Positions 4,480 to 63,990 of a stretch of 64,000 nt of DNA are shown piece by piece. Under the pieces are notes generated by a model. That model saw nothing but the letters and a program-made list of their open reading frames with translations, had not been told where the DNA came from and did no database searches. Both the position numbers and the translations under genes were made by a program. This DNA is from Lepidostoma basale. Lineage: Eukaryota > Arthropoda > Insecta > Trichoptera > Lepidostomatidae. The stretch covers positions 1,178,001-1,242,000 of the forward strand of contig JAHDVF020000880.1 in the NCBI GenBank assembly GCA_022606425.2, in the 5' to 3' direction. Numbering within the stretch: position 1 is the stretch's first letter; each line of letters begins with the position of its first letter.

Positions 4480-4716
4480 ATACCTTGTTTTGGTGGAAGC
4501 AATTTGATATTTCAACATTTTAAACTATTTAATTAAAACACTGTTATATAAAAACACAATTGATTTAATTTCTTTAAAATTGTCGATGTGTTGATTGAAA
4601 CACCCGATGACTCTAACATTCGTTAGCGCAACAGCTGTCTTGACAATTTAATAGAAATTAAATAAATTGTGATACAAACAGTGTTTCAATTAAACAGTGT
4701 ATAAAATAAAACATTG
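4480..4716 (+). mobile_element. hammerhead foldback family B, copy 1
   Basis: Palindromic arms: TTGTTTTGGTGGAAGC... and AACACTGTTATATAAAAACAC on the left; GTGATACAAACAGTGTTT on the right. Between them is a worn hammerhead-like core: CCGATGA (4608-4614), helix II TCTAAC/GTTAGC, GCAAC in place of GAAAC, then AGCTGTC. Five of six helix II pairs are retained even though the bases differ from other copies. Confidence 0.6.
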
Positions 4717-4719
4717 AGT

Positions 4720-5570
4720 AATAAATTAATTATGGTATAGCAGATATGAATGATTTAATGGGAGATCTAAGAGATTAATAACTTTTTATATTTTTTTATG
4801 TGACAAGTTTTTCTCTGTGAGTTTTCTTGTCAAAACAATTCCACCAACTTTTCACCGCTATCTCGGCTCGTTAACAAAACCTTTGTGTGAAATAATGTAT
4901 TTTTTAAAGTTAATGTCGTTTCTCGCCTTCCGACTTCACTTCATAAAGGGGAAGGATGAGTAATATTAAACCGCAATTGCGAGAGAAACCGAAAAGTCCA
5001 CAATACAACTATGATCCCCGAGATGTCTTTTGTTATTCATATTCCGTAATCCTTCGCCTTGCTTTCGTGAACTGAGACTTCTTTCGGGAATAATATTTCT
5101 CAAGTGTCCCGTTCTTGCGTTTTAGAATAAAATCCAGTACTTAGCTGTGCTGTGAACGTACCCTTTTTTACGAAACATGGCGGGTTCGCTAATCCGGAAA
5201 TGAATAACGAAAACAAAATGGCAGAAAGCCTTTTCTATTTAAATAAGTAAGGAAGTGGCATCCGGGACAAGAATAAGCGATGAATCGATTAATAAGTCGT
5301 CGCTTTATTTACTACCCCAATTCCGTTAGAATTAACACTGAATATCTACTAAAAATATACTGTTAAATTCTTTATTTGAAAATCTTCTGATGCATCTACT
5401 TTGGTATATATGGTATATTCTCGAGAGAGTAGCGAGATTCATTTTATACTTAGAATTTTATACTGTAAGATTAAAAAAAAAATTTGAAAATCTATCATTT
5501 AAACCCTTTTTAGCGCCATCTCTTGGTGACGTACACTACAAACAATAAAACATTTGCCTAATAAAAAGGG
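4720..5570. other. unique AT-rich spacer
   Basis: No element family from elsewhere in the window recurs here and there is no supported reading frame. Composition is mixed, with moderate-GC patches around 4915-5060 and 5160-5280. It could be host intergenic sequence. Confidence 0.35.
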
Positions 5571-5572
5571 GT

Positions 5573-5842
5573 TCACATTGTCTTTTGAAGAAAGATTGCA
5601 TTTTCACAACACTTTTTTATACCTTTCACAAACATATTTCGGGACACAGACTTCACTTCTTTAGTGTATGAGTTTTAATTTAATTTTTAATTTTAAAGTT
5701 AAAATTCAAACACTGAAAAAGGGAAGTCTGTATCCCGAAATATGTTTGTGAAATGTGCAAAAAAGTGTTGTCAAAATACAACCTTTTCAAAAAGTTATTC
5801 AAATGTGAATCCACAACACAAAGTGTTGGCGAATATAGAAGA
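5573..5842. mobile_element. hammerhead foldback family D, copy 1
   Basis: Inverted arms about 120 bases long: TTTCACAAACATATTTCGGG on the left, CCCGAAATATGTTTGTGAAA on the right, extending to an outer CATTGTCTTTTGAAG... / ...TTTTCAAAAAGTTATTC. The plus-strand core reads CTGAAAA (5712-5718), GGG/CCC helix II, then GAAATATGTTT (5737-5747). The minus-strand core has CTAAAGA. Two other copies (29008, 49628) share arms and borders. Confidence 0.65.
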
Positions 5843-6540
5843 AAAAAATATTTGTCTGTCTAAGGATTAATTTATATTCATTTTAAAAGTACCTTATATC
5901 TCGGTCCATATGATATCCATTTTTCATATCTTTGCCAAAGTATTATAATACAAGTTTAAATAAACAAGGAAAATTTCGTCGAAATCGGTTCAGTATCTGT
6001 CAAATCTATCGGTCCTATAGTCACGAACATTGCTTTTTTTTATCATAAAAATGAAGCTAATCAATTCCCTAATGTGCTCGTTTCAACGTGATGCATGCAA
6101 TAACGTGGTAAAATGATTTTTCGTACAAATTGACACCGCACCGTGTGCTCATGTACGTATAAATTCAGATCGGAGAATGCGAAATGACGTTGGATTTCGA
6201 TTATGCCCGAATCACCTACGGATATTGCTTCGCAGATAGGTTTGGTCGGCGGGTCCTGTCGGATGATAGCAGTTGCTGGATGGAGACGGTAGTTATAGTA
6301 TAGTGAGGGGAGGGCGTTGGAAATGTCGGAGAAGGGGTAGGGGGGCGCAGTTAATATAATATCGACAGCGACGTAGGCATCCAGAAGCCCAAATTCCAAA
6401 ATAGTGTTGTATTGAAATTTATTCAGACGTTTCGTTCGTATTACGATCGCGGGAGATGAATAAATTGATTTTGATACATATTAGAATACGTAGAATTATA
6501 ATACTCGTACGTCGAATGAAAATACGAGTATAAGATATGA
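5843..6540. other. spacer with an unassigned 112-codon frame
   Basis: A minus-strand open frame at 6061-6399 encodes 112 residues rich in Tyr, Pro and Ile. It matches no family I recognise, has no signal peptide or repeat, and is not duplicated here; I do not call it a gene. The interval also contains a 'GTCGAAATCGGTTCAG' motif near 5976 of the kind seen in insect repeats. Confidence 0.35.
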
Positions 6541-6786
6541 ATGCGGTGCGAATAAAAGTGTTATGAGAATAATAATGAAAGGTTTTCTAGCTCCGTTCAC
6601 CTTCTTCACCATTCTGTCTTCACTCATTCTTTCCATGTGTCCAAACTATCTTGATCATCGTCCGGACCGGAAGAGTTTCATATACTCAAGTGGAATCGAG
6701 AGAAGTATGTCAGGACAGAACAGTGTGGATGTCCATTCTTTCTGCTTACCCCTCCGGAGAGACGGCGCGATGGTTAGCTGGTTATA
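6541..6786 (+). mobile_element. RTE-like LINE fragment with inverted middle
   Basis: Three pieces of the GTTA-tailed family: 6541-6588 is plus-strand (region 'CGANDGVMNKIMKG'), 6588-6655 is minus-strand (reverse of the 'WFGHMERMNEER' region), and 6656-6786 is plus-strand again and ends in the tail (GATGGTTAGCTGGTTA). The middle part is inverted relative to its neighbours. Confidence 0.72.
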
Positions 6787-6789
6787 ATA

Positions 6790-9469: not shown

Positions 9470-10598
9470 ATTGAAAAATGAATGCTTTTTAAATGAAAAA
9501 AAAAGGAGAATTTTATATTATATTTCTTCTATGTTCTCCATACTTTGTGTTGTAGATGTGTTATTAGTGTTTTTCTTTTTTATATACTTTGTATATACAC
9601 CACAAACTTTAAAAAAAATACATATGACACATGTTTCGGACAACCGGTCCTTCCACAGTGATATTATAAAGGTACATATTTAAAATATTATAAAATTGTT
9701 TACAAATATGATCAGTGTTGACAGATGTTATAAAGATTTATAAAGTTTTATTATACTTTTTTTTCTATGGCCGGAGCTTCGTCAGGGTTACAAAAACAAG
9801 CTTTTTAATTGAAATATTAAAGCACCAAAATAATGAGAACTTAGACTGAAATATAAAGCTCAGTCAGTTAGTGATTTCTTAGCACCACAAAAGTAATGAA
9901 CCGATTAAGGAACCTCGTGTTTCTAAATTATCACAAGAGAAAGGTAAACTTAATCCTGGCATAATAAAATAAATACAATTTTCAGCAATAAATTAACATT
10001 ACACGCAGGATTCGGAAAATGTTGGCGGCGCGCTATACACGAACCACCTTAATAAGATAATAATGTGTTATTATTTATGGCTGTGTTAATGTAATAAGGT
10101 TGAACTTTCGAGATAAGTTAGCTCGCGTGTATTAACTTACTCAGCGACACCGAATTATTGCGTAAATTGATTAAAATACGTAAGATTTACGGCGCAAGTG
10201 TCAGCGGTTGTCAACCATTTGTCTAATAACATCTAAAATATTGTAATTAAATTCCGCTTTGGATTATATGATCACGCGTCACGACGATACGAGTTTAATT
10301 CAATTGTTGGAGCAGTACATGTCACTGGAAATGATTAAATGCTCATTACTAAAGAACATATTATTTGTGATGGCTGCTGGAATCGTTATATTCGCCTTCA
10401 TTTTGGGATGTAAATTTGCGTATAAATCTATTTTAATAATTATGTTTTTCCAACGCTTAAATATTCAAATAAAAATCTTATAAGATATCATTTATCTGAA
10501 ACATGTCAGATAATTTATTTTTAAAACAAAAAAAAAACACAAACTTGAGTCCTGTGAATTATTTATTATTTTTAACCGGAAAAGTTTACTACTTTAAT
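9470..10598. other. AT-rich spacer, nothing supported
   Basis: Two short open frames occur: 9438-9683, which overlaps the pogo-like end, and 10259-10483, which would have one hydrophobic segment. Neither has a recognisable family, start context or duplicate, so I do not call them genes. Confidence 0.35.
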
Positions 10599-10600
10599 TT

Positions 10601-10844
10601 ATTGTTTCTTAATCAATGCTGTAAAACTCCATATTAAATAATGAATACGAATGAAAACGTCTGTTTTCTAGAAGTTTAATGATATTTTATGTGAATGAAA
10701 TGTTTCGCCTGTCTAAGCCATTTAATGATAATACATTAATAGCCTTAGACATGCGAAACATGTCATTAAACTTCTAGAAAACAGACGTTTTCATTTGTAT
10801 AATTTATTTAATATGGATTTGTACATTTGTGTTCAAGAAATAAT
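10601..10844. mobile_element. hammerhead foldback family A, copy 1
   Basis: Near-complete palindrome. The left arm runs TGTAAAACTCCATATTAAAT... GAAAACGTCTGTTTTCTAGA... AAATGTTTCGCC; the right arm is its reverse complement, ending ATATGGATTTGTACATTTGT. The plus-strand core is GCCTTAGACATGCGAAACATGTC, with GAAAC and the self-complementary ACATGT plus C. The CTGANGA box has decayed (ATTAATA). Confidence 0.7.
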
Positions 10845-10849
10845 ATTTC

Positions 10850-11817: not shown

Positions 11818-12505
11818 TAACGAACTAACTAACCAACTATCACGCCGTCTCCCTGAAGAGGTAGGCAGAAATAATGGACTGCCACACTTTTCTTTCCTGG
11901 CATATTTCTCTCGATTCCTCAACATTCATACATCGTGTCATGCACGCGCTTCGATATCTCTGACTCCTCACATGGCCGACATTCAATATTTTATGTATTT
12001 GATCGTGCCACGTTTTTCTCCGTCTTCCTCTATTTCTGATTCCATTTACATCGTTAACATATAATTTTTTAACCATTCTTTCCATATGTTCAAACCATTT
12101 TAATGATCCTTTCATTATTTTGTTCATAACACCATCATTCGCACCGCATTCACTTCTTATATTTTCATTCGACACTCTTTAATACACAGAGTATCCACAC
12201 ATTCGTCTGAGAAATCTCATTTCTACTGCATTTACTCTACTTTCATCCTTCTGTTGCCAGTTCCATGCTTCGCTTCCATACATAAGCGTCGGTAGAAGAA
12301 CACCATTGTGCACTGCCATTCTAGCTTTTTTGGATAGGTTTTTGTTTGCGATGACAACTTTAAGTGCACCATTCACTTTGTTGCCTGCCCCAACCCTTCT
12401 TTCAATATCTCTCTCCACTCGCTCATCTCTTGTTAACATGCTACCTAAATGCACGAACTCATCTACTTGCTCCAAATTTTCACCATTCACGATGATTGTA
12501 TTACT
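11818..12505 (-). pseudogene. RTE-like LINE ORF2 C-terminus with one stop
   Basis: The second longest copy of the dominant LINE family. From about 12500 down to 11840 a single reading frame encodes 'EQVDEFVHLGSMLTRDERVERDIERRVGAGNKVNGALKVVIANKNLSKKARMAVHNGVLLPTLMYGSEAWNW...RRMCGYSVY', then a stop at 12176-12178 where other copies have Asp, then 'RVSNENIRSECGANDGVMNKIMKG' to the natural end. This is the thumb/C-terminal region after the RT active site. Terminal tail (AACTAACTAACC on the plus strand) is present. Good preservation suggests a fairly young pseudogene. Confidence 0.85.
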
Positions 12506-13040
12506 GATTACTATATAACCATAGTTAATTAAAAACATTTCTTTCTCTAAGTAAACCAGATCTGCTTTCATATTACTAGTAAGATGTATTTTATATATCG
12601 CGACGAATTGTAACAAATGTGTTAATATATTCGAGAATCCGACTGAGGGTACTTGTGATATTTCTCATTACGAATTACCCCCATTTACAGGGGGGTAGGC
12701 CGGGGATGCTGGGGCAGGCAGACTACTCGTGGTACAGTGGCGCTCCAGATATAAGTGTCGGCTAAAAACGGAAACGTTTATAGCGCGTATGAATATCGCT
12801 GAGGGAGCCAGTGTTAGGAGATCTATGGCCGTTGCCGTGAAACTGTGGCGCGAAATTCAAAAATCAATTGTTGATAATTTTGAATTATCTCTTTTATGAA
12901 ACACAATTCTTTATTCAATGAAGATATAATGTAATCAAATAACTAACAATCATTTTTTTTGATTCTGGAGGTGTAAATAAATGTGATTGTTTCACACATC
13001 TCTTCATTTTTTACATTGCTGGTAAATTATGTACTTACTT
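12506..13040. other. spacer with a GC-balanced patch
   Basis: About 12620-12880 is more GC-rich than its surroundings (GGGGGGTAGGCCGGGG...) but has no open frame or repeat partner here. Its origin is unknown. Confidence 0.35.
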
Positions 13041-13850: not shown

Positions 13851-13982
13851 AGGTAGTTTTGAATCAAATAATTTTAGTACATATTGAACGCTAAGGCATT
13901 AACAATGCGGAATTCCAAAATAAAATACTTAGAAAATTGAAAAACTGTATTTAATCCACTATTTATTAAAAAATATTAAAAA

Positions 13983-14018
13983 ACACGACACGATTCGGAG
14001 GATACCATCTTCAGGTGT
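13983..14018 (-). ncRNA. hammerhead-ribozyme-like motif, family H left arm
   Basis: Minus strand: helix I ACAC/GTGT (14018-14015 with 13986-13983), core CTGAAGA (14014-14008), one extra T, a damaged helix II, GAATC in place of GAAAC, then GTGTC with cleavage predicted after the complement of 13987. The core heptamer fits CUGANGA exactly; the GAAAC box and helix III are mutated, so it is probably dead. Confidence 0.5.
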
Positions 14019-14525
14019 AAAAATATAATAAAAACTAAACAATGAAAGACTAATAAAAAACGTATTTAAAATTCGATACAATAATTCAAATTTAAATCTG
14101 GGCTATTTGTTATAAGTAGGTACTAACATTTATTTTTTAACAGTAAGAACTAATAAATAATATTAAATAATAATACTTATACATGATGATAACATCAAAA
14201 ATATTAAAAAAAAATTGTAATTTAAAAAAAAACATGCATTTTTATGTAGAAATTAATAAATGATTAATTTGCATTTGATTGGAAATGGGAGCTTGGGAGA
14301 TTAAGTGTAGACTAAGTATTTAAGGAGAAAGGAGTAAAAGGAGGAATCTGATTATAAATTATGTTATGAAAACATTATTATGAATCGGATTATTGGTAAA
14401 AATAATTGTTAGTACCTACCTACTTATAACAAAAAGCCCAGATTAATTTAAAAATTTGAATTATTGTATCGAATTTTAAAAGCGTTTTTATTAGTATTTC
14501 ATTGTTTAGTTTTAATTATATTTTT

Positions 14526-14564
14526 ACATCTGAAGATGGAGGTATTCTCTGAAACATGTCGTGT
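14526..14564 (+). ncRNA. hammerhead-ribozyme-like motif, family H right arm
   Basis: Helix I ACAT/GTGT (14526-14529 with 14561-14564, one G-U pair), core CTGAAGA (14530-14536), extra T, helix II GGAG.../...CTCT, GAAAC (14551-14555), ATGTC, predicted cleavage after 14560. Layout is that of a minimal type I hammerhead with a loopless three-pair helix III (ACA/TGT). Activity not shown. Confidence 0.6.
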
Positions 14565-15196: not shown

Positions 15197-15428
15197 TTTT
15201 AGTATCAAAAACGATAGTTTTCAAGGAGTTTTATTATAATATTTATATATGACATGTTTCGTCCTTCCAAGTCATTTTCAAAATGTCATTATTTTGAAAA
15301 TGCCTTAGAAGGGCAAAACATGTCATACATAAATATTATGATAAAACTCCTTGAAAACTATCGTTTTTCATACATATTTATAATTTAATTTGGAGTTTTA
15401 CATCATTGTTTAAGAAACAATAAATAAA
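15197..15428. mobile_element. hammerhead foldback family A, copy 2
   Basis: Palindrome with arms AACGATAGTTTTCAAGGAG...ATATGACATGTTTCG and the reverse complement, plus the family end TGGAGTTTTACATCATTGTT. The right core reads GCCTTAGAAGGGCAAAACATGTC (GAAAC to AAAAC). Left GTTTCG is intact. Confidence 0.7.
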
Positions 15429-17776: not shown

Positions 17777-19078
17777 CTACAACATCGTTCTACCACACAT
17801 ACGTCTTAGGGACCTCATCTCTACCGCATTTATTCTGCTCTCATCTTTCTTCTGCCAGTTCCATGCTTCGCTTCCATACATAAGGGTTGGGACCAGAACT
17901 CCATTGTTAACGGCCATTTTCGCTTTCATTGATAAATTCTTGTTTTCAATAACTACTTTTAAAGCTCCATTCACTTTGTTACCCGCACCAACCCTTCATT
18001 CAATATCACTGTCCGTTCGGCCATCCGCTATGAACGTGCTACCTAAATACACGAATTCCCTCACCTGTTTCAAGTTCTCTTCATTTACACTTATATCACA
18101 AACTGTCATTTGCTCTTCCCTTTCAAAAACTAACACCTTTGACTTTCCAACATTCATCATTAAATCGTTCGACTTGCATGCCTCATACATTCTCGACACC
18201 AAGACTAGTAATTCGTCCGCACTATCCGCAACGAGAACGGTATCGTCCGCGTAAAGCAGACAATTTACAGACAGATCACGCATCTTAGCACCAGCATTTA
18301 TACCTTTGGGTTCTTTCATACACTTGTCCATATACAGATTGAACAACCATGGAGACATCACGCAGCCCTGCTTGACACCCTTCGTGATATCAAACCAGGG
18401 CGTGATGTCCCCATTTACCCTAACACTGGCAGTGCTCCCTTCGTAGAGAGAAGCAACCGCCCGTATCAGTTTTGTGCTCACTCCGTATTCGGACAAGATT
18501 GACCACAGTTTATCTCTGTTCACTCGATCATAGGCTTTTTGCAAATCGACAAACGCACAGAAAAGCTTACGGTTTTTGGCCATAAACTTCTCCGCAAGCG
18601 TTCGAAGTGCAAAAATCTGACCCAAACATCCTCTTTCGGTCATAAAAGCGCCTTGAACATCCCATACTCTTTCAGTCGTCGTCTTTTTTACTCTTTCTAT
18701 TAAAATTCGACCGTAGAGTTTACCAACGGCGCTTAATATACTTATTGCCCGGTGATTTCCACAGTCCATACGGGACCTCTTTCCCTTATATAGAGGCATG
18801 ATAACAGCCCTCCTCCAGTCGAACGGCGTATATCCCTCCTCTAAACACTGGTTAAAGAGTCAATATAACCATGCTGAAACCACCGGCCCACTTTTTTTGA
18901 TTAACTCCAAGGCTACACAGTCATATCCGACAGCTTTTCCACCTTTCATAAATTTTACAACACTTTCTATCTCGTTCAAATTTATTTCAGTCATTTCACT
19001 TCCGCTGTTCATGCAACTCTCATTTGTAAAGCTCATTCTTAATGAACCTTCAGTCATTTCACTGCCATACATATCTTC
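17777..19078 (-). pseudogene. RTE-like LINE reverse transcriptase relic
   Basis: The only sizeable reverse-transcriptase domain in the window. One minus-strand frame from 19072 to 17777 encodes 'GYTPFDWRRAVIMPLYKGKRSRMDCGNHRAISIL', 'FCAFVDLQKAYDRVNRDKLW' (first catalytic Asp), 'GVKQGCVMSPWLFNLYMD', 'CLLYADDTVLVADS' (YADD catalytic pair) and 'FVYLGSTF'. It then continues into 'VGAGNKVNGALKVVI' and 'LPTLMYGSEAWNW'-type thumb sequence. Two premature stops break it: TGA at 18860 and TGA at 17996 (AGA to TGA). The endonuclease domain and 5' half are gone, and a (TA)n run bounds the 5' side at 19080. The 3' side is cut by foldback B2. An RTE-type enzyme would nick target DNA and copy its own RNA; this copy cannot. 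Confidence 0.88.
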
Positions 19079-20060: not shown

Positions 20061-20245
20061 GATTGTTTAGTGGCTTTGCTTGGATTTAATTTATATACAC
20101 AATTTCATCTTTGTTTCACCTTGCGATGGCATTCTTAAGAATGAAAGAAAACTCAAACAGAGATTGAGAATGCCCTCGCAAAGCGAAACAAATTTGTCAC
20201 AATTTACATAAATTAAATCTAAGTAAAACCACTAAGCAATCGTGT
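20061..20245. mobile_element. hammerhead foldback family A variant
   Basis: Palindrome with arms ATTGTTTAGTGGCTTTGCTT / AAGTAAAACCACTAAGCAAT. The plus-strand core reads TTGAGAA, extra T, GC.../...GC, GAAAC, AAATTTGTC, so helix III is ACAAA/TTTGT (five pairs), different from but structurally equivalent to ACA/TGT in family A. C17 is retained. Confidence 0.65.
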
Positions 20246-23835: not shown

Positions 23836-24013
23836 AATAAGTTGTCATCGTAAACAAAAGCCTATCCTAGTAAATCTAATTGTGTTTTTGTACCGACCTT
23901 TATGTATGGAAGCAAAGCATGGAATTGGCAAAAGAAGAATAAATGTAAAATAAACGCAGTAGAAGTGAGATCTCTTAGACGAACGTGTGTAAAATCTGTG
24001 TATGATAGAATAT
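23836..24013 (+). mobile_element. RTE-like LINE internal fragment
   Basis: Carries AGTTGTCATCGTAAACAAAA, CTTTATGTATGGAAGC and TGAGATCTCTTAGACGAACG, the 'VVIANKN ... YGSEAWNW ... RSLRRMC' part of the dominant family. It ends abruptly where foldback H2 begins. Confidence 0.7.
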
Positions 24014-24130
24014 CGATTTGATAATGTTTCGAAGGTGACCTAGATCCTCAGGTATAAATTATAAGCGATGGATGATGGAGCTCATCTCCGAAACATTGTC
24101 GTGTTTTCATATTTTATTTATTAACTGTTT
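24014..24130. mobile_element. hammerhead foldback H-like, copy 2
   Basis: Two hammerhead-like cores in opposite orientation: minus strand CTGAGGA (24051-24045) with GAAAC (24030-24026), and plus strand TGGATGA (24069-24075), helix II GGAG/CTCC, GAAAC (24090-24094), ATTGTC, then GTGTTTTC. CTGAGGA fits the CUGANGA consensus exactly. Confidence 0.6.
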
Positions 24131-24134: not shown

Positions 24135-24310
24135 AAAAATCTTTGTGATAAATTTCACAATTGATTATATTTTGTCGCGACAGCTGTTTCGCTTACCGAT
24201 GTTCGCATCGTCAAGTCTTACAATTAACTGTTAATTCTAAGACCTGACGATGCTTACATCGGTTAGCGAAACAGCTGTCGTTACAAAATAAATATAATCA
24301 ATTGTAAATA
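24135..24310. mobile_element. hammerhead foldback family B, copy 3
   Basis: Palindrome with arms CAATTGATTATATTTTGTCG...CAGCTGTTTCGC / GCGAAACAGCTGTCGTTACA...ATAATCAATTG. Plus core: CTGACGA (24244-24250), extra T, helix II GCTTAC/GTTAGC (5 of 6 pairs), GAAAC (24268-24272), AGCTGTC. The minus-strand mate has TTGACGA. Confidence 0.7.
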
Positions 24311-24324: not shown

Positions 24325-24600
24325 CATTGTTTTGGCAGAAACACTATGATACTTTAACATTTTGAACGGTTAATGAATAAACTTTATTTTTTGTATCACA
24401 ATTATTCAAATTGACATAGGAACAAATACACATAAAGATCCGAAAAATCGCGAAAATTTGACATTCGATATGTAATTGTAGCACCCGATGATGTCAACAT
24501 TGGTTGATGAAACAGCTGTCCCGTAAAATAAAATACAATTGTGATACAAAAAACAATGTTTTATTCATTAACAGTTTAAAATAATAATTAAGTAAAACGA
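24325..24600 (+). mobile_element. hammerhead foldback family B, copy 4
   Basis: Left arm TTGTTTTGGCAGAAACACTA...AACTTTATTTTTTGTATCAC and right arm GTGATACAAAAAACAATGTT. The plus strand carries the best family B core (next entry); the left-arm mate has degraded to AATCGCGAAAATTT. Confidence 0.7.
24485..24520 (+). ncRNA. hammerhead-ribozyme-like motif, family B
   Basis: CCGATGA (24485-24491), extra T, perfect six-pair helix II GTCAAC/GTTGAT (24493-24498 with 24503-24508, one G-U pair, loop ATTG), GAAAC (24509-24513), AGCTGTC, predicted cleavage after 24520. The only core departure is C for U at position 4. Helix I is weak, so activity is doubtful. Confidence 0.55.
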
Positions 24601-25024
24601 TGTTTTTTAACTACTTCCACTTTTGTATAATATTTATATCGACACCTGGAGAGACAGCTAGACAGCTGAAGACAAAAGTGGAAGAAGTTAAAAAACATCG
24701 TTTTATTTAATTATTATTTAAAATGAACTTCCATCAAGAGATTTCAGTAAAATCATTTGATTTGTTATAAATGTCACAATTGATTATGCTAATCAAATGA
24801 TTTTACTGAAATCTCTTGATGGAAGTTCATTTTAAATAATAATTAAATAAAATGATGTTTTTTAACTACTTGAACTTTTGTATTTATTTCGACAGCGACC
24901 GGTTTCGCCAGGCTCGCATCGACAGACCAGTGTGTCGATGCCAGCGAGCCTGGCGAAACCGGTCGCTGTCGAAATAAAGACAAAAGTTCAAGTAGTTAAA
25001 AAACATCGTTTCATTGAATTATTT
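24591..25024. mobile_element. hammerhead foldback family C array
   Basis: Alternating inverted arms. Arm: AACTACTTCCACTTTTGTCT...CGACCGGTTTCGCC, extending outward to ATCTCTTGATGGAAGTTCAT. Order is arm, inverse (24591-24762), a 28-base spacer, arm, inverse (24791-25024). The two central arm ends (24721-24762 and 24791-24832) are perfect 42-base reverse complements. The first pair has lost its ribozyme core (ACACCTGGAGAGACAG), the second keeps it. Confidence 0.78.
24932..24964 (+). ncRNA. hammerhead-ribozyme-like motif, family C
   Basis: Core GTGTCGA (other copies CTGTCGA), extra T, perfect five-pair helix II GCCAG/CTGGC (24940-24944 with 24950-24954, loop CGAGC), GAAAC (24955-24959), then helix III ACC/GGT and C17 at 24964. 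A6 is replaced by T in all family C copies, which would be expected to weaken catalysis. Confidence 0.45.
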
Positions 25025-25207
25025 TTTTTAAACTAAGTTTTTTATTTATTTAAACAATTAATATTGTTGAAATATCTATGTGTTTCAACTAAAACAGTAG
25101 ATTATATCATATTTTTATTGTATAAAGATATTTAATAAATAAAAGTGGAACATTAACAGCGTTGTTTTTCAATTGCAAAACATTCAATGACAGCTAGGGA
25201 TTATAAT

Positions 25208-26539: not shown

Positions 26540-26755
26540 TATTAATACGAATAAAAACGCCTGTTGTCTAGAAGTGTTATTGTAATTAATGTGAGTGAAA
26601 TGTTTCGCCTTTCTAAGGCATTATCAAATGTGGCATTTAGACAGGCGAAACAAATTATTCATATTAATTACAATAAAACTGATAGGAAACAGATGTTTTC
26701 ATACATAATATTTATTGAATGAGTTTGAAATCATTGTTTAAGAATCATTAAATTG
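26540..26755. mobile_element. hammerhead foldback family A, copy 4
   Basis: Arms AAAACGCCTGTTGTCTAGAA...GAAATGTTTCGCC and the reverse complement GGCGAAACAAATTATTCATA...; the right core is CATTTAGACAGGCGAAACAAAT, so helix III is broken (ACAAAT). Confidence 0.65.
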
Positions 26756-30612: not shown

Positions 30613-31625
30613 TAATTTAGAATAACGAGGATCCCACTAAAACCAGAAAAATAATTACAACAGCCAACAAAATATTTTTTTCTTTGCTCCCAGTATTCAA
30701 TCACGTATTGGAAAATCACTTTAACAAAAAAAAATAATGCATGTATATGAAAGTTTTTTTTACATTAAATTTAAACAAAACAACGCAATGGTTGCTTATT
30801 AAACATAATTAAGGGGTTATACTCAGTCAAAAAGCCGATTTTTTCCTGGAAAGACATTTTCAAAGCTACTATAGCCGACCTCCGGGAGCTCATCTAAAAA
30901 AGAGCATCTGGCGGTGAACACTATATCTCTTAATTGGATCTCCTAAAAAGATGAAGATACCTTAAATATTTCGTTAATATAAGATATTATTTAAGCAAAA
31001 TATAAATTTTAAATAAAATGACGGCCTTTCAGACAAAAAAATTAATTTTAGATAAAAATTTTGGCCTTAAATTATTTATGGAATAGAAAATATTAAGTAA
31101 AACTTTCGATCAACTACTAAAAAATATATCAAAAATGCTTATATAAAAATTAAGACTGATCGATTTAGTCGTTTTTGAGAAATCTTACTCACCAATTTTA
31201 CGAACACAGTTTTGAGAAAACCACATTTAAAGTTTTAAAAGCACTGCTAAATGATTTTAAATGCTCCTAGATGTTTTTACAAATATCCGAGTAACTTTAA
31301 GAATGATTGACATGAAATTTTTATATATGTTTTGAAATAGATGTTAATTACGATTTTTTTTAAAATCCAAAATCCTGACCCTTACCCTTAATACAAATAT
31401 TGGCGTAAAATATGTACGTTAGCAAGTAGGTACTAAATGTTTTTTTTTATTTTGTTTATATATTTGACACATTCACAATAGAGTATTCAGTATCACATAG
31501 GTATTAAAACATTAACGTTACATATTTACATACAAACAATTAGTAAAATTTGAAAACGCAATGTTTTAGTAAGTATAACTAACTTAAATATTGAATAACT
31601 CTAATGAAGCATTCGAAATTAGATA
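30613..31625. other. AT-rich stretch, possible TTAA-flanked element
   Basis: TTAAGGGGTTATACTCAG (30809) and CCCTTACCCTTAA (31379-31391) could be the ends of a TTAA-targeting (piggyBac-like) non-autonomous element of about 580 bases, but the terminal similarity is short. No frame is open. Confidence 0.25.
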
Positions 31626-31627
31626 AT

Positions 31628-32249
31628 TAATACCAGTTAAAATGTCAGTTTTCTAGAAGTTTTATTATAATTGATGGGAATGACATGTTTCGCCCTTCTA
31701 AGGCATTATCAAATGTGTTGATAATGTCTTAGAAGGGCGAAACATGTCATTTCCATAAAATATAATAAAACTTCTAGAAAACTGACATATTCATTTAAAT
31801 CTATTATTTAATATGGAGTTTTACATCATTGTTCAAGAAAGAATAAATAACTAAAAATTTGGTTTAATTGTATATTTTGAATTTGGAATTAACGAACGAT
31901 CTCCGGATGTCAAGAAATGAGTAAACATATTTGTACAATATTAAAACTATTTGTTAAAAAGTATGACATGTTTCGCCCTTCAAAGGCATTATCAAATGTT
32001 TTGATAATGCCTTAGAAGGGCGAAACATGTCATTCCCATAAAATATAATAAAACTTCTAGAAAACTGACGTTTTCATTCGAATCAATAATTAAATATGGA
32101 GTTTTAAATCATTGTTCAAGAAACAATAAATAACTGGAAATTAGGTTTAATTGTATATTTTGAATTTGGAATCAACGAACGATCTCCGGATGTCAAGAAC
32201 TGAGTAAACATATTATGTACAATATTAAAACTGGTTGTTAAAAAGTATG
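31628..32249. mobile_element. hammerhead foldback family A, tandem dimer
   Basis: A complete palindrome (left arm from 31640 CAGTTTTCTAGAAGTTTTAT) is followed by a second unit. Units are 31682-31964 (283 bp) and 31965-32248 (284 bp), each starting GACATGTTTCGCCCTT and ending TTGTTAAAAAGTAT. They share a tail not seen in other family A copies (GAACGATCTCCGGATGTCAA). The joint falls at the minus-strand hammerhead cleavage position. The downstream border (AAGTAT/G) is the same sequence as the internal joint. Confidence 0.8.
32001..32031 (+). ncRNA. hammerhead-like motif, family A
   Basis: TTGATAA (32001-32007) in place of CTGANGA, extra T, helix II GCCTT/AAGGGC, GAAAC (32022-32026), ATGTC with C17 at 32031. 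G8, normally essential, is A in this and most family A copies, so activity of the present sequence is unlikely; the fold is retained. Confidence 0.45.
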
Positions 32250-34914: not shown

Positions 34915-35105
34915 AACAATGAACTGTCAACAGGATTTTACAAATATTTTTTAGATATACTTAAGGCGTTAATAGTGTGGAATTCCATAATGTCGACATT
35001 CTGACATAAACTCAGTTCATATCGTTCTCCTGATGAAGAAGGTGTAAAGCCTTCGAAACATGTCGAGAAAAATAAACTTAAGAGTGGAAGTTTAATTCAT
35101 AAAAA
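34915..35105 (+). mobile_element. hammerhead-bearing element, family I, copy 1
   Basis: Shares GGCGTTAATAGTGTGGAATTCC with the outer part of family H and the block CGAGAAAAATAAACTTAAGA with the element at 42485. A complete hammerhead motif sits at 35025-35069. The inverted mate arm is not complete here. Confidence 0.6.
35025..35069 (+). ncRNA. minimal type I hammerhead ribozyme candidate
   Basis: Every conserved position of a hammerhead is present. Helix I TTCTC/GAGAA (35025-35029 with 35065-35069, five Watson-Crick pairs); core CTGATGA (35030-35036); one extra A; helix II GAAGG/CCTTC (35038-35042 with 35050-35054, five pairs, loop TGTAAAG); GAAAC (35055-35059). Helix III is ACA/TGT without a loop, and the cleavage triplet is GTC, with the cut predicted after 35064. 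The loopless helix III would favour a dimeric fold, as described for very short helix III hammerheads in other retroelements. The extra base between A9 and helix II is a departure from the classic form. Activity is inferred, not shown. Confidence 0.72.
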
Positions 35106-36889: not shown

Positions 36890-37622
36890 ATTGAAACAAT
36901 TCTAGCATTGGTTCTTACATATAATATATCGTGAATATATTTTGGTATGATAAAATAAAGGTCCGGAAAAATATAATATGGTCTTACTTAAATAATGAAA
37001 AAAAAAAATGATCTAAAATTATATTTTTAGTAGGCTTCCGTAGGTATACCGGTTTCGGTAGCTACTTCTGGTACCTACATTAACATTTAATTAGTTTATA
37101 TAATAAGTGCTAATGGTGGGGGTTACATTTTTTAATGATTCTTAATATTTCATTTCTGTTGTTTGTTCATTAAGGGTTGTTGTTTTCTATAAATATATAT
37201 ATATAGAAAGCACTTATAAAGGTGACTTATTTTATAAATGATTCCATATAATGTAAATTTTTGGTGTTTTGGGTTAGTTTGTTTACTATATAATTAAAAA
37301 TCAGTTACGATGGTGGCTAATTGGTTTGGATTAGTTAAGATTAAATATTTCATATGTCTTGTGGCCCGGTTACTAGTGTCTGCGAACTTCCCCCTGAAGT
37401 TTTGAAACATAGATAATTACGGCAGATTGCATATTCTTTAGAAGGTTAATACCTACATATTAGTTAAATATTGATTGGAATTGAATTTCATTGTTGACAA
37501 TAGATAAATTAGTGGTGATTGTACGTGCATCAGTTGATCATTCAATATTGTTTTACGCGTGTTATTTTTAATCGGTCAATTTCTAAGATTTCTAACCTAC
37601 CTTATTTTGGGCCTTTAGGTTG
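36890..37622. other. AT-rich spacer, nothing recognised
   Basis: Contains a TATATATATATAT-type run near 37190 and no supported feature. Confidence 0.35.
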
Positions 37623-37627
37623 AATAT

Positions 37628-38097
37628 TAGTGTTCTTCTACCGACCCTTATGTATGGAAGCGAAGCTTGGAACTGGCAAAAGGAGGATGAAAGTAGAATA
37701 AATGCAGTAGAAATGAGATCTCTTAGACGAATGTGTAATACTCTGTGTATTATAGAGTGTCGAATGAAAATATAATAATTGAATGCGGTGCGAATGATGG
37801 TGTTATGAACAAAATAATGAAAGGATCATTAAGATGGTTTAGACAAATGGAAAGAATGAATGAAGAAAGAATGGTAAAAAAATTATATGTTAACGATGTA
37901 AATGGAACCAGAAAAAGGGGAAGACCGAGGAAAACGTGGCACAAAAATAAATCAAATATTGAATGTCAGCCATGTGAAGAGTCGGAGAAATCGACGCGCG
38001 TACATGACACGATGTATGAATGTTAAGGAAGCGAGAGAAATATGTCAGGAAAGAAAAGTGTGGCAGTCCATTCTTTCTGCCTACCCTTTCGGGGAGG
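37628..38097 (+). pseudogene. RTE-like LINE ORF2 C-terminus
   Basis: From 'LPTLMYGSEAWNWQ' through 'SNENIIIECGANDGVMNKIMKGSLRWFRQMERMNEERMVKKLYVNDVNGTRKRGRPRKTWH', a frameshift at AAAAATAAATC, then 'INQILNVSHVKSRRNRRAYMTRCMNVKEAREICQERKVWQSILSAYPFGE'. The GTTA tail itself has been lost. Confidence 0.82.
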
Positions 38098-38099
38098 AT

Positions 38100-38730
38100 A
38101 AAATATTAGCGGTGTTGCTATTACAAAAGCTATGATTAGATTCTATTAGATGTTCTGCAAAATTAGAATTGTATTTCTGATTAGGCCAAATACTGATGTG
38201 TTCATTTATTCTTATTTTCAAAAGAAAACTTTTCATACATTGCAACTGCCTACCAATGGGAATGAATAAGAAGAAACAATTTTGACGTTTGAAGCTTTAA
38301 GCTCAGAAAGTTACCGTTTTTACGAGCGTAAAAATTCCATAAAATTTCATCCAATGACCCATTAAAGTTCATACGAAATGAATGTAGTGCTTTATCAAGA
38401 TTAATCAATCACAAAGTTTGCCTCGATCCGTTTATATATATAGCGTAACTGTGTGAGAGTCGTACGTCTGAGGCAATTGTATATCAAAAAAAAATTAAGG
38501 GAATGAATTAGTAAGTAGGATAAATGAGATCACTGAGAATAATGTGTAGGAAAACGGTATATAATAGACTACTGAACTACAAAGTAATACAGATATGAAC
38601 ACATATTATATATACATACATACATGTATCACATATCTACATCATATCCATTGAAGCAAATATGGCAGCACGTAATTGAATATAACTGACGAAATAGCTG
38701 TCACGAAAAATAAAAAAATAAAATACATAA
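38100..38730. other. spacer with a small RTE-like remnant
   Basis: 38505-38575 (GATAAATGAGATCACTGAGA) matches the extension of the diverged RTE copy near 21960. Otherwise nothing. Confidence 0.4.
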
Positions 38731-46284: not shown

Positions 46285-46390
46285 ACACTTTATTCTTTAC
46301 AACAACCAACCGGTTTCTCTCCCAACAAAGTTCCGGCGGGAGCAAAACCTGTTGGTTCATACAAAGAATAAGGTAGTTAAAATTTAAATT
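46285..46390. mobile_element. foldback family F, copy 2
   Basis: Shorter palindrome: CTTTATTCTTTACAACAACC, AACCGGTTTCTCTCCCAAC / GTTCCGGCGGGAGCAAAACC, TGTTGGTTCATACAAAGAAT. Shares the GTTCCGGYGGGAG core with copy 1. Confidence 0.55.
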
Positions 46391-46417
46391 TACAATGGTA
46401 TAAATATTATATTTTAT

Positions 46418-46945
46418 AAGGATTAATTGTATCTCAATAGAGACGTAGATGTAAATTGTTTTCTAGGAACAGAATGTGGTGGCCGAGGCGCTTACAGGAC
46501 TTACGGTTGTTGGGTTGAGCTTATATTGGTTGGATTGAGCGATCGCTTTATGTTTAACAACATTCCCCATTCCGACTTTTTTCTTATGACCACCACGTCT
46601 GAAAATTTTTTGGAACTTGTATATATGGTAGGACTCCACGCCTATCTTTACATATTTAAGTTCACTCTACACTAGCGTCATCTATTAAGATTGGAAAGCA
46701 TTAAGCAAAAAATCTTTATTAATGTACTGTGAAAGTCTCTGCAAATCATACAGTACTAGACTACGCCTGGAGATGTCTCACCAATTTTATGGCTACTTGG
46801 ACCAGTTATTTTATACAACATTTTGAATGTATACAAATTCTTTTAGACAAATACTGGATTTCACCCATTGCGGATAAATTATTTTTATTTTATAAGGATT
46901 AATTGTATCTCAATAGAGACCAAGATGTAAATTGTTTTCTGCGAA
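46418..46945 (+). repeat. family K unit plus start of a second unit
   Basis: Unit of about 478 bases from ATAAGGATTAATTGTATCTC to TTGCGGATAAATTATTTTTA. At 46897 the same starting sequence (TAAGGATTAATTGTATCTCA) begins again and runs about 50 bases. The body matches 51877-52345 with roughly 90% identity by eye. A plus-strand frame (46427-46675) is not conserved between copies. Confidence 0.7.
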
Positions 46946-53029: not shown

Positions 53030-53365
53030 ACATTGATACGACGCCATTACGCATCGTTGCCATCTTAGACCACAAGATGGCAGCGAGCTGCCGAAACCGA
53101 CCAGAGCCGTTAATCTAAGTGGATTTAAACTAAAGACATTTTCAATAAAAAAAAAACGGTTGGCGCTACTAACTAAATAATGTCCTATTTTTAAACATAT
53201 TTTTTTTTAAATTCCGTTGTAGTATATCTTGAGTTTAATTTCACTTAGATTTATGACTTTAACCGGTTTCGGCAGCTCGCTGCCATCTTGTGGTCCAAGA
53301 TTTCAGCTAATGTGGAAACCGATCAAACTATAAAACCAAGTGGAATTAAAACAAATATATCTATA
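53030..53365. mobile_element. hammerhead foldback family E, copy 1
   Basis: Plus-strand motif at 53071-53100 and minus-strand motif at 53262-53292 point toward each other across about 160 bases. A third, worn plus copy follows (TGGAAACCGATCAAAC, 53311-53327). Both main motifs share GGCAG/CTGCC helix II and GAAACC. Confidence 0.65.
53071..53101 (+). ncRNA. hammerhead-like motif, family E
   Basis: CACAAGA box (two changes from CUGANGA), extra T, perfect five-pair helix II GGCAG/CTGCC with CGAG loop, GAAAC (53093-53097), CGAC. The minus-strand mate keeps GAAACCGGTT, i.e. helix III ACC/GGT. Core box changes make activity unlikely. Confidence 0.4.
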
Positions 53366-56249: not shown

Positions 56250-56960
56250 CAAAATAAATCAAATGATTTAACTGAAATCTCTTGATGGAAGTTCATTTTA
56301 AATAATAATTAAATAAAATGATGTTTTTTAACTACTTCCACTTTTGTCTTTATTTAGACAGCGACCGGTTTCGCCAGGCTCGCTGGCATGTCCAGACCAG
56401 TCTGTCGATGCCAGCGAGCCTGACGAAACCGGTCGCTGTCTCTTCTCTTCTCTGGTTTCAATCCTGGGATTGGTTTGCAGCAATTTCCTCCATTATTCTC
56501 TTCCATTTTTCCCTGTCTTGTGCGGCTCTTTTGAGATCTGCATATGATGAGCAGCGTACGTCCACCAACAGGTCCTCCAGGTACTCTCGGCGTGGGCGTC
56601 CCCTAGAGTTTGTTCCCTCGATCATACCCTCCATTATGGCATGCAAGAGACCTTCTTGACGTATTACATGGTCGATCCATCTTGCACGCCTTTCGGACAA
56701 GGTCCTGAGCAGGTGCCTTCCTCCTTCGATTCCTTGAAGAACTTCCTCATTCGTGATGTGGTCTCTCCAGGAAATTCCAAAGAGTCTTCTATAGGACCAC
56801 ATCTCAAAAGCCTCTAGTCTCCGCTTATCCCTTTCGGATAGGCACCATGTCTCGCAGCCGTACATCAAGACACTCCATACATAGGTCGCTGTCTAAATAA
56901 AGACAAAAGTGGAAGTAGTTAAAAAACATCGTTTTATTTAATTATTATTCAAAATAAATG
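56250..56960. mobile_element. hammerhead foldback family C, split by a LINE
   Basis: Left arm 56250-56400 (ATCTCTTGATGGAAGTTCAT, ACTACTTCCACTTTTGTCTT, CGACCGGTTTCGCCAGGCTC), right core 56402-56434 (CTGTCGA, GCCAG/CTGAC, GAAAC, CGGTC). Then an inserted LINE, then the remaining arm from 56884 (GGTCGCTGTCTAAATAAAGA...AACATCGTTTTATTTAATTA). Confidence 0.75.
56442..56883 (-). pseudogene. LINE C-terminal insertion with 11-bp duplication
   Basis: Flanked by GGTCGCTGTCT at 56431-56441 and 56884-56894. The minus strand is an intact frame of 136 residues: 'MMYGCETWCLSERDKRRLEAFEMWSYRRLFGISWRDHITNEEVLQGIEGGRHLLRTLSERRARWIDHVIRQEGLLHAIMEGMIEGTNSRGRPRREYLEDLLVDVRCSSYADLKRAAQDREKWKRIMEEIAANQSQD', ending at a natural stop; tail (AGAGAAG)n. 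'YGCETW', 'RRLEAFEMW.YRR', 'W.DHV.R', 'GRPRR.YLEDL' and 'L..AAQDREKW' are typical of LINE ORF2 C-termini of another family. 5' truncation removed the RT. A young insertion. Confidence 0.82.
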
Positions 56961-57795: not shown

Positions 57796-57918
57796 GGTGT
57801 TCTTCTACCGACCCTTCTGTATGAAAGCGAAGCATGAAACTGGCAAAAGAAGGATGAAAGTAGAATAAATGTAGCAGAAATGAGATCTCTTAGACGAATG
57901 TGTGAACACTCTATATAT
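57796..57918 (+). mobile_element. RTE-like LINE small fragment
   Basis: 'GVLLPTLLYESEA' to 'EMRSLRRMC', ending at ACACTCTATATATT. It is joined directly to the upstream part of the next copy, so the same region occurs twice in this cluster. Confidence 0.7.
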
Positions 57919-58650
57919 TTTTGAAAAAGAAGAAATCACGACAGTCTGCAACATTAGCGTGAATAGTGAAAATTTGGAGCAAGTAAATGAGTTCGTGTAT
58001 TTAGGTAGTATGTTTACCAGAGATGGGCGAGTGGAGAGGGATATTGATAGAAGGGTTAGGGCAGGCAACAAAGTGAATGGTGCACTTAAAGTTGTCATCG
58101 CAAACAAAAACCTAGCCAAAAAAGCTAGAATGGCACTGCACAATGGTGTTCTTCTACTGAACCTTATGTATAGTAGCGAAGCATGGAACTGGCAAAAGAA
58201 GGATGAAAGTAGAATAAATGCAGTAGAAATGAGATCTCTTAGACGAATGTGTGGATACTCTGTGTATGATAGAGTGTCGAATGAAAATATAAGAAGTGAA
58301 TGCGGTGCGAATGATGGTGTTATGAACAAAATAATGAAAGGATCATTAAGATGGTTTGGACATATGGAAGGAATGAATGAAGAAAGAATGGTAAATTAAT
58401 TATATGTTAACGATGTAAATGGAAGCAGAAATAGAGGAAGACCGAGGAAAACGTGGCACGATCAAATAAATCAAATATTGAATGTCGGCCATGTGAGGAG
58501 TCAGAGAAATCGACAGGCGTGCATGATACGATGTATGAATGTTGAGGAAGCGAGAGAAATATGTCTGGAAAAAAAGTGTGGCAGTCCATTATTTACTGCC
58601 TACCCCTTCGGAGAGACGTCATGATGGTTATTTAGTTAGTTAATTAAGAA
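57919..58650 (+). pseudogene. RTE-like LINE ORF2 C-terminus, long copy
   Basis: Encodes 'FEKEEITTVCNISVNSENLEQVNEFVYLGSMFTRDGRVERDIDRRVRAGNKVNGALKVVIANKNLAKKARMALHNGVLLLNLMYSSEAWNWQKKDESRINAVEMRSLRRMCGYSVYDRVSNENIRSECGANDGVMNKIMKGSLRWFGHMEGMNEERMVN', then a stop at 58397 (AAA to TAA). The same frame continues as 'LYVNDVNGSRNRGRPRKTWHDQINQILNVGHVRSQRNRQACMIRCMNVEEAREICLE', with a shift before the end. GTTA tail near 58640. One of the least damaged copies. Confidence 0.88.
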
Positions 58651-60480: not shown

Positions 60481-60483
60481 TTT

Positions 60484-61127: not shown

Positions 61128-61325
61128 TTCGACATTATAAACTGTAAAATTATAAAAGTAAGTTTTTATGTATCACAATTTTGTTTTTATTTTTTGCGAC
61201 AACTGTTTCGTCAACCAGCCGTTTGGTTGATGATGTCAATGTCGGTTGACTAAACAGTTGTGGCGAAAAATAGAAATTAAATTGTGATACAAAAAAACAG
61301 GGTTTTATAATTTTACAGTTTTTAA
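61128..61325. mobile_element. hammerhead foldback family B, copy 8
   Basis: Complete palindrome: TATAAACTGTAAAATTATAA...TATGTATCACAATTTTG / AAATTGTGATACAAAAAAAC...TAATTTTACAGTTTTTA. Plus core: TTGATGA (61227-61233), extra T, perfect helix II GTCAA/TTGAC, TAAAC (for GAAAC), AGTTGTG. Left arm mate: GACGAAACAGTTGTCGC on the minus strand. Confidence 0.7.
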
Positions 61326-61738: not shown

Positions 61739-61744
61739 TTTATT

Positions 61745-62325: not shown

Positions 62326-62329
62326 ATAA

Positions 62330-62675
62330 AATGGTACAGTTCTTCATATAAGAAGTTAATGCAATGCGAATGAAAGTGTTATGAGGAAAATAATAAGAGA
62401 GTCATTAAAATGGTTTAGACACATAGAAAGAATGAATGAAGAAATAATGATAAATAATGTATATGTAAACTATGTATCACAAATGTAACAAAAAAATAGA
62501 GCAAGACGTGGCATGATCAAATTAATCATATATAAAATGTTGGCCATATGAGGTGTCAGATAAAATGTCGAGCGTGCCTGATAAGATGTATAAATGTTGA
62601 GAAGCGTAAGAAGTAAGTGTGATATTGAATTATGCCTGCCTGAGACGGCGTGATGGTTAGTTTGTTAGTTAGTAA
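62330..62675 (+). mobile_element. old RTE-like LINE 3' end
   Basis: Plus strand, diverged: AAGTTAATGCAATGCGAATG, GAGTCATTAAAATGGTTTAG, GTGGCATGATCAAATTAATC and GAGACGGCGTGATGGTTAGT with a GTTTGTTAGTTAGT tail. About 30 bases before the tail are missing. Confidence 0.75.
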
Positions 62676-62679
62676 AATC

Positions 62680-63598
62680 CACATGTAATTTTTTAAAACG
62701 AGGATATTTTATTTTTTACGAATGAAATGTTACATTTAAAAAAAAATGTTTAACCATATGATGATGTGCACTTATACAAGTCTGTGCAGAAATTTTGACT
62801 TTAAAATCCAATAATCAATATATTTTATGTGTGCAGTATATTATCAGGGGGATTATAACATAAGTATCGAAAAAAGGAACATTAAATATAAAAAAAAACG
62901 TTTTAACTTAATGAATGTTCTGGTGGTCATATTTCGCTACGACACGCAGTATTCTTGCCAAATGATTCAAATTCTATCCGGGAAAAATCTCGATATATAC
63001 GAGGCTCATAAAGAAAGCCTTTGAATTGTTTGTGGAAAAGGGATTTTCAATATGTGATTTATAGGGAGGAGAGGCGGATATATTATCGTCGTCGCCCTTA
63101 AGGATGACAAACATGTTCGATAAAAACGATTTTTTAAGACGCATTTTGTGTGAATGTAAAATTCAAGTCATTGAATTTATTTTATTTTATTACAAGGATT
63201 TTTCGTTATTATTGAAACTAGGGTATTAACTTACTGCTAGGGCATTATCTGTCGTGTCTCCCATAATATATTGTATATTAACATATTATCAAAAATAAAT
63301 AATTAATACGGAGATAAACATCATTGTTCAAGAAAAAATCAATATAAATGTGTTATTAAAATATATTTAGTTTAAAAAAAATATTCGGAATAAAAAGCAT
63401 CTTCATTTATCTAATCAATCTTTAGATAATCCAAAATAATTATATCTATTTAGTATAATAGTGAAACGTTTTCCTTTGCCAGGGCTCTATTTTACCCAGC
63501 TACAATATGTCACTTCCAAAAAATATAGTTAGTCTTCTACAAAAACACAAATGATGCACTTGACACAAAGATGTGCTAAATTTAAATCAATATTTTAA
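62680..63598. other. AT-rich spacer with a family A remnant
   Basis: 63285-63350 (ATTAATACGGAGATAAACAT, CATTGTTCAAGAAAAAATCA) is the outer end of a family A arm. A short frame at 62827-63024 is unsupported. Confidence 0.4.
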
Positions 63599-63599
63599 G

Positions 63600-63770
63600 G
63601 TTAATAAAAACGATTAATTTCTAGAAGTTTTAATAAATTTTATGGAAGTGACATGTACGTACGTAACGCTTCGTAAAGGCACTCTGAAATAGACTTTAGA
63701 TAATATCTTAGCAAAGCGATACTATTACTCCAATAAAACTTATAGAAATCAATCGCTTTCACTAATATTA
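63600..63770. mobile_element. foldback family A, eroded copy
   Basis: AAAAACGATTAATTTCTAGA, GGAAGTGACATGTACGTACG / AGCAAAGCGATACTATTACT, TTATAGAAATCAATCGCTTT. Both GAAAC boxes are lost; arms still pair. Confidence 0.55.
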
Positions 63771-63777
63771 TTTGTAA

Positions 63778-63990
63778 TCCATAGTTTTGGCCGAAAACTA
63801 TGATACTTATTAAATGTTTTATTCATGAAAGATGTTATTATCGTATCACAATTTATTTTCTATGAGATTGTTGCAACAGCTGTTTCGCCAACCTATGGTG
63901 GTATTATCAGGTGTTACAAACTAATGATGCCAACATTGCTTACATAGTTAACAACATGAAGTGTTTCAAAATTAAATAGTTTAATATCAT
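63778..63990. mobile_element. hammerhead foldback family B, copy 9
   Basis: TAGTTTTGGCCGAAAACTAT outer arm; minus core: CACCTGATAATACCACCATA, GGTTGGCGAAACAGCTGTTG, with CTGATAA, extra T, helix II ACCACC/GGTTGG, GAAAC and AGCTGTT. Plus-side core eroded (ACTAATGATGCCAACATTGC). Confidence 0.65.

Follow-up and report, generated by a model that had tools for sequence, protein, structure and literature searches.

We analysed a stretch of 64,000 nucleotides (C1518:1178001-1242000, hereafter the window) from a host genome of 768.8 Mb. It contains foldbacks, i.e. palindromic pairs of inverted arms, with a compact core that resembles a hammerhead ribozyme and appears to be linked to Penelope-like elements (PLEs). 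About ten families of cores were labelled, some of which are perhaps related, and all of them follow the same order: the CTGANGA-like box is followed by a single extra base, then by helix II, GAAAC, a helix III that is mostly self-complementary, and a closing C or T. A first-pass annotation of the window had described seven families with one such architecture. The helix II strings that it named are all present and the shared core is confirmed; in the case of family A, the pairing exists as GCCTT/AGGGC and not in the proposed form GCCTT/AAGGGC.

The best-preserved copy in the window belongs to family I (35025..35069, plus strand) and consists of helix I TTCTC/GAGAA, CTGATGA, an extra A, GAAGG..CCTTC and GAA-ACATGT-C. 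A family D core (14526..14564, plus strand) combines helix I ACAT/GTGT, CTGAAGA, T, GGAGG..TCTCT and GAA-ACATGT-C, and the core of the inverted D arm (13975..14030, minus strand) shows GAAT in place of GAAA. Within the B/G foldback, the plus-strand core at 24244..24279 (CTGACGA-T-GCTTAC..GTTAGC-GAA-ACAGCTGT-C) is accompanied by an inverted partner core with TTGACGA (24169..24230, minus strand). A family B core is located at 24485..24520 (plus strand; CCGATGA-T-GTCAAC..GTTGAT-GAA-ACAGCTGT-C), and a B foldback with degenerate cores at 61135..61325. The family C core at 24932..24964 (plus strand) reads GTGTCGA-T-GCCAG..CTGGC-GAA-ACCGGT-C; the C foldback at 24834..25027 probably comprises two head-to-head arms of the pseudo-long terminal repeat (pLTR) type and adjoins a tail-to-tail arm pair (24669-24884). 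Family A is represented by a plus-strand core at 32001..32031 (TTGATAA, the U3/A8 form, -T-GCCTT..AGGGC-GAA-ACATGT-C) and by foldbacks at 10600..10845, 15202..15373, 26543..26710 and 31597..31833, the last of which has a second unit at 31963-32100 due to a tandem duplication. Hereby, a segment of about 283 bp is duplicated in tandem at 31560-32130 together with the A foldback, hence two direct cores lie close together. The two family E cores are arranged tail-to-tail, at 53071..53102 (plus strand; CACAAGA-T-GGCAG..CTGCC-GAA-ACCGAC) and 53261..53292 (minus strand; CACAAGA-T-GGCAG..CTGCC-GAA-ACCGGT-T), while the family H core (24069..24100, plus strand; TGGATGA-T-GGAG..CTCC-GAA-ACATTGT-C) lies head-to-head with core K (24009..24067, minus strand; CTGAGGA-T-..). 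Core J (20164..20198, plus strand) reads TTGAGAA (again U3/A8) -T-..-GAA-ACAAATTTGT-C with a 10-nt palindrome as helix III, and core Q (9616..9671, minus strand) reads CTGTGGA-A-GGAC..GTCC-GAAACATGTG, with CTGAAGA-T in the Q-type copies of the genome.

A scan of the window for the core (box with up to two mismatches, 0-2 extra bases, hairpin, GAAAC) matches 21 sites, compared to 4.25 on average in 20 order-2 Markov windows used as control; 13 of the 21 sites then carry GTH (Markov average 1.6). These 13 cores span eight families, and all 13 have exactly one extra base. The hammerhead rule that helix II directly follows A9 is thus violated by one inserted base in each of them; an insertion between A9 and helix II is reported as tolerated (PMC3705267; here and below, sources with PMC numbers are cited from excerpts of their text). 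A strict hammerhead descriptor without the insertion finds no exact-box core in the window and one core with a single mismatch, and a descriptor test that starts from the palindromes is weak (9 of 25 palindromes vs. 55 of 400 random stretches). The box C3 U4 G5 A6 N7 G8 A9 along with G12 A13 A14 is complete in I, D1, G1 and K of the window. Helix I, analysed in register for 16 window copies, has 5 bp in both I copies, 4 bp in two D and two C copies and 3 bp in G1. Dimer-forming minimal hammerheads need a palindromic helix III. In nine of 11 representatives helix III is a perfect palindrome starting from A15.1 (ACATGT, ACAGCTGT, ACCGGT or ACAAATTTGT); eight of these nine are followed by H17, with Q having a G instead, and helix III of H and, by eye, of K is not palindromic. 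Of 139 other GAAAC sites, seven show such a palindrome, among them a family A copy (50553).

Covariation was evaluated in an alignment of 23 rows under ten family labels, some of them maybe related (A/J, D/H/K). The rows were picked from scan hits and homologues, a selection which favours helix II, and the family I rows are misaligned, which blurs the counts. Helix II and the C3-G8 pair are formed in 78.5% of the cells, compared to 57.1% in shuffled and 25-43% in slid alignments, and 35 cells are altered on both sides (13.4 when shuffled). The covariation score of 0.521 (0.202 shuffled) is reached by none of 500 shuffles, so that the helix II covariation which the first-pass annotation had put forward as a check is found in these rows. 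Two of the five measures are unremarkable, namely both-side-changed pairs (5 vs. 4.9) and further pair types (17 vs. 15.1). The C3-G8 pair occurs as CG in 11 rows, UA in five and UG in two and is unpaired in five, the UA rows being those of families A and J, perhaps a single lineage. As the U3/A8 combination is reported as a compensated form of C3-G8 in natural hammerheads (PMC3088659), the TTGATAA box of family A, earlier taken to be clearly mutated, is better described as such a compensated form. The extra base is T in 20 rows, A in two, C in one and G in none, as the earlier "almost always T" had it. Model R1, built from this alignment, finds 36 window places at E ≤ 0.05, of which 13 lie beyond the 23 training rows; in 76 kb of viral control contigs no match has an E below 2.9. 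Model R2 was built without A, J and I and run on the window; it recovers five A copies (E 0.0015-0.03) and the I copy at 35014 (E 0.009), all left out of its training.

Across the host genome, the pattern CTGANGAT-(10-16)-GAAACNNGTC (box-T-GAAAC) yields 2924 + 2820 = 5744 matches, in which the box letters are met by construction; the reversed pattern yields none in the same genome. Types D, Q, E, I, K/H-like and C are represented among the 100 matches listed. Every catalytic box letter is present in listed cores of types D, Q, E and I and in some of type C; C- and E-type cores with CTGACGA and CTGAAGA are also on the list, whereas the box is missing in the window copies of C (CTGTCGA, GTGTCGA, CTGGACA) and E (CACAAGA). 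Although the pattern does not ask for it, 42 of 49 distinct sequences taken from this list pair at three or more of the first four helix II positions; neighbouring helix II registers pair at about 61-62% of cells, a high value since many of the helices are runs of G and C. Of 34 core rows, mostly of family D and drawn from 30 loci (30 distinct places), 25 have a helix I of at least 3 bp, with 8 bp in L043; at register +1 it has 0 bp, once 1. Because most rows belong to family D, a between-locus shuffle gives near-equal helix I counts, and these counts are no covariation test. A pattern search in viral contigs gives eight matches, by our own estimate no more than chance; the exact family C string has no match in viral and bacterial collections, and the C-terminal reverse transcriptase (RT) frame described below has none in plasmids.

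The genome also offers open reading frames (ORFs) to which the cores can be related. It contains at least 62 matches to the GIY-YIG endonuclease (EN) domain; 20 of these loci were examined, and 17 match a PLE frame by tblastn. In 14 of the 17 PLE-type loci (counts that are not independent, since all seven C loci belong to a single family) a same-strand core lies within 1 kb downstream of the GIY-YIG domain; it is missing in L018, L019 and L027. Control positions, counted because cores are dense (0.31 per kb and strand at the threshold used), hold a core in three of 17 loci (downstream, other strand) and in two of 17 (upstream, same strand). In the position that an inverted pLTR predicts, upstream on the other strand, there is one in eight of 17 loci. 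The spacing from GIY-YIG to the core is 443-448 nt in six family C loci and 399 nt in one, 348-582 nt in five D-type loci, 90 nt in L023 and 536 nt for the divergent core of L013; family D lies downstream of GIY-YIG in L012, L022 and L024-L026. The Penelope link raised by the first-pass annotation is thus supported for families C and D. Locus L029 contains a frame of 758 aa with RVT_1 (1.4e-13) followed by GIY-YIG (6.6e-5), of which a second, near-identical copy (99.5%) exists. This frame is flanked head-to-head by family C cores at 148-208 (minus strand) and 3153-3213 (plus strand), i.e. by an inverted core about 300 nt before and a direct core about 370 nt after it; L030-L033 likewise bear cores on both sides. 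As the frame runs through 158 codons without a methionine, the copies are probably 5'-truncated. The window itself holds EN relics only: GIY-YIG is absent among its 150 longest stop-to-stop frames, and three pieces at 37504..38242 (minus strand) show 50-67% identity to the 758-aa frame (E 4e-8, 8e-4). About 450 nt downstream of this relic, near the family C spacing, GAAAC and the palindrome ACCGGT are retained (37047..37056, minus strand) next to an unrecognisable box. Moreover, an AGTGG motif is common to C, D, I and one copy of E, where it lies 25-37 nt 3' of GAAA (background 1.2%); no such motif was observed in A, B, G, H, J, K and Q. With this motif, and with C and D both behind PLE endonuclease domains, the description of the families as unrelated finds no support.

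With regard to layout, all seven overlapping opposite-strand core pairs in the window are head-to-head, as are nine of the 15 opposite-strand core neighbours within 700 nt and, by eye, six close pairs from the genome list of 100 places. The arms end unequally: 14 of 25 family A arms end at consensus 107-112, while the C foldbacks at 24930 and 51612 have arm ends at 116 and 73 and at 78 and 68, respectively. The pLTRs of PLEs are described as inverted, mostly head-to-head, with an optional tail on one of them and a palindromic junction, explained by self-priming (PMC3846280). The palindromic carriers, which the first-pass annotation considered a notable extension, are thus of a kind already described in PLEs. 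We regard it as highly probable that each foldback is a head-to-head pLTR pair of PLEs, and that every pLTR contains a minimal type I hammerhead into which a single base, U or sometimes A, is inserted after A9 and before 10.1. Sequence comparison establishes the common architecture, the covarying helix II and C3-G8 pair, the mostly palindromic helix III, the mainly head-to-head orientation and, for C and D, the position of cores behind PLE RT/GIY-YIG ORFs; the remaining families would belong to PLEs as well.

A possible origin of the foldbacks can be outlined as follows. The RNA would cleave as a dimer via its self-complementary helix III, probably aided by the PLE protein. The element protein would nick both target strands, and reverse transcription would begin within the RNA, some 60-125 nt 3' of the ribozyme. 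One cDNA primed on each strand would then grow towards the other until both meet just upstream of the ribozyme, and the product would be a palindrome whose cores point outwards and whose arms end unequally. The inserted U would supply the second letter of the PLE start codon ATG, and most window copies are presumably old, non-coding and dead. For PAc, the Poseidon PLE of the lizard Anolis carolinensis, the protein is reported to cut and extend both strands, with reverse transcription starting at two neighbouring positions within the RNA (PMC11167929). A possible alternative source of the palindrome, also published, is self-priming of a single cDNA (PMC3846280).

Several observations weigh against the hammerhead and PLE assignment. 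The Rfam search named as a check in the first-pass annotation gives no match in the window at gathering score, hence no hammerhead family, and none of the 32 matches at E ≤ 10, mostly microRNA-precursor models on palindromes, is a hammerhead; two short window pieces compared with Rfam likewise yield none. As to activity, the complete hammerhead box is absent from C, E, H and B1 of the window and present in A and J only as U3/A8, and helix I has only 0-1 bp in nine of the 16 window copies (G2, two B, A, J, H, E, K, Q). Model R2 at E ≤ 5 misses J and the second I copy and reaches the remaining A copies only at E 0.65-4.1. As to the elements, a complete PLE 5' end with a direct pLTR ahead of the ORF was not seen among the genome loci, A, E, H, I, J and Q were not found behind an RT/EN ORF, and a family C DNA query gave no matches in the host genome in a search which skips very common words. 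As to the layout, six of the 15 neighbours mentioned above are tail-to-tail, 58-667 nt apart, and one of these pairs forms the E inverted repeat (53.06-53.30 kb); the 11 A arms not counted above have ends scattered over 53-99; target-site duplications are unconvincing (one of 17 foldbacks above the 95% background, with three mismatches); and a second stem-loop, the proposed RT start, is found in A and one B representative only, at a background of 15%. Finally, the seven family C cores beside PLE ORFs read CTGTCGA, in one case CTGTCAA, and with A6 changed in all of them, activity may not be needed.

These family C cores also favour an explanation in which the elements are PLE pLTRs whose core is a mere RNA fold for protein recognition or start-codon context and no longer a ribozyme. 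In line with it, ribozyme mutants of the lizard PLE still insert in vitro (PMC11167929), and a natural A6C hammerhead is slow (PMC3088659). Against it, D, Q, E, I and some C cores of the genome keep all catalytic box letters, along with a helix I of up to 8 bp in L043. We consider a fold without catalysis unlikely for the cores as a whole; family C may do without ribozyme activity, while D, Q and I may still possess it.

The extra base bears on the same question. Together with A9 and the first helix II base, the extra T spells ATG in the representatives of A, B, C, D, E, G, H and J, not in I, and this fits a PLE with its ORF start at stem II; a PLE whose ORF begins at stem II of the hammerhead is described (PMC11167929). 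In two of the 34 genome core rows, open frames of 59 and 46 codons run from the core ATG and encode a common peptide, pieces of which recur in many loci (57 tblastn matches at E ≤ 0.1), many of them with stops. Coding from the core ATG is at most suggested by this. It is conceivable, though less likely than not, that a group of PLE families fixed a core in which A9-U10-G10.1 is the ATG of the ORF. Cleavage, which in family D would occur 25 nt downstream (the distance from the ATG to C17), would remove the start codon and thus choose between messenger and template RNA; the young family C would since have lost A6, which would uncouple coding from catalysis.

Alternatively, the foldbacks could be non-autonomous retrozymes, i.e. 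small retroelements with a ribozyme that spread as circular RNAs, with PLEs lending only their enzymes. Unit size and type I hammerhead fit published animal retrozymes (PMC7229834, PMC7761336), as does the fact that no adjoining PLE ORF was found for A, E, H, I, J and Q. However, retrozymes are direct tandem repeats, each with a hammerhead, whereas the overlapping pairs here are head-to-head throughout and the direct repeat noticed is the duplication at 31.6-32.1 kb; the C and D cores behind PLE ORFs speak against retrozymes as well, and we hold this explanation to be improbable. That the foldbacks are DNA transposons similar to miniature inverted-repeat transposable elements, with the core as residue of a conserved DNA hairpin, is hardly credible: they are palindromic, small and AT-rich, and a mariner transposase relic lies in the window, but their outer ends vary between arms and copies, the target-site duplications fail to convince, and RNA-type covariation including C3-G8 and the PLE association point elsewhere.

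Minimal type I hammerheads of PLEs were reportedly described by Cervera & De la Pena in 2014 and Lunse et al. in 2017, whose work is known to us via reviews. As far as those reviews go, the published PLE hammerheads have a weak or palindromic helix III, lie in PLE flanking repeats and reach very high copy numbers, as here; the extra base, U or A, that is fixed between A9 and 10.1 in the families of this genome may be a difference from them. PAc resembles the elements described here in a hammerhead overlapping the ORF start, a core in the pLTR and RT followed by GIY-YIG (PMC11167929); unlike PAc, the present genome has many solo pairs without an ORF and several families. The Penelope families of Adineta vaga (PMC3846280) share inverted, mostly head-to-head pLTRs, an optional tail on one arm, a junction palindrome and solo pLTRs; the pLTRs given there measure 181-218 bp and flank ORFs, and the word "ribozyme" is absent from the excerpted text. 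The plus-strand hammerhead of chrysanthemum chlorotic mottle viroid likewise has an extra base between A9 and G10.1, which there is A (U in a tested mutant) and belongs to a viroid rather than a retroelement (PMC3705267). At this extra position, U speeds cleavage 3-4 fold, A lowers it moderately, and C and G are very harmful (PMC3705267). As far as sequence can tell, the earlier ribozyme reading is right in kind, and the cores most probably reside in PLE pLTR pairs, which are of a known type. Novelty is confined to the U10/ATG core and the scale at which it occurs here; the insertion as such is not claimed as unpublished.

The window holds further palindromes. Related degenerate cores, outside the families of the first-pass annotation, are seen at 5591-5786 (CTGAAAA-A-GGGA..TCCC-GAAATATGTT) and 29045-29265 (CTGAAGA-AA-GGGA..TTCC-GCAACATGTT). 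The palindromes at 46242-46419 and 46028-46144 have GAAACCGGTT or GAAACCAGTTGGTT behind a hairpin, the second reaching E 0.14 with R1, and those at 25190-25460 and 45730-45800, in which no core was seen, may represent another element type. Another family C foldback (56292..56958) is interrupted by a truncated long interspersed nuclear element (LINE) with a C-terminal RT frame at 56458-56892 on the minus strand. This LINE was considered as owner of the foldback and rejected, since it (56366-56884) is by eye a later insertion with an 11-bp duplication, AGACAGCGACC. LINE-type RT frame fragments are located at 17999-18859, 12182-12664, 30190-30576 and 57884-58396 (RVT_1 in the first, the rest by eye), and a mariner-type transposase relic at 41475-42256 (Transposase_1; DDE_3 in one of 150 frames). 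In the genome, two of the strongest GIY-YIG matches (L009 and L011) fall in long open frames, each about 620 aa in length and of bacterial appearance by eye, and the assembly may hold a symbiont or contaminant.

Taken at the strength given above, the PLE assignment would explain the palindrome layer of one large eukaryote-like genome as PLE debris. The results also suggest that current Rfam hammerhead models miss this population. It would provide natural variation, in thousands of copies and several co-occurring families, of a hammerhead core into which U10 is inserted. Hereby, two questions on PLE biology would become testable, namely whether PLE ribozymes need to cleave, and whether core and start codon act as one device.

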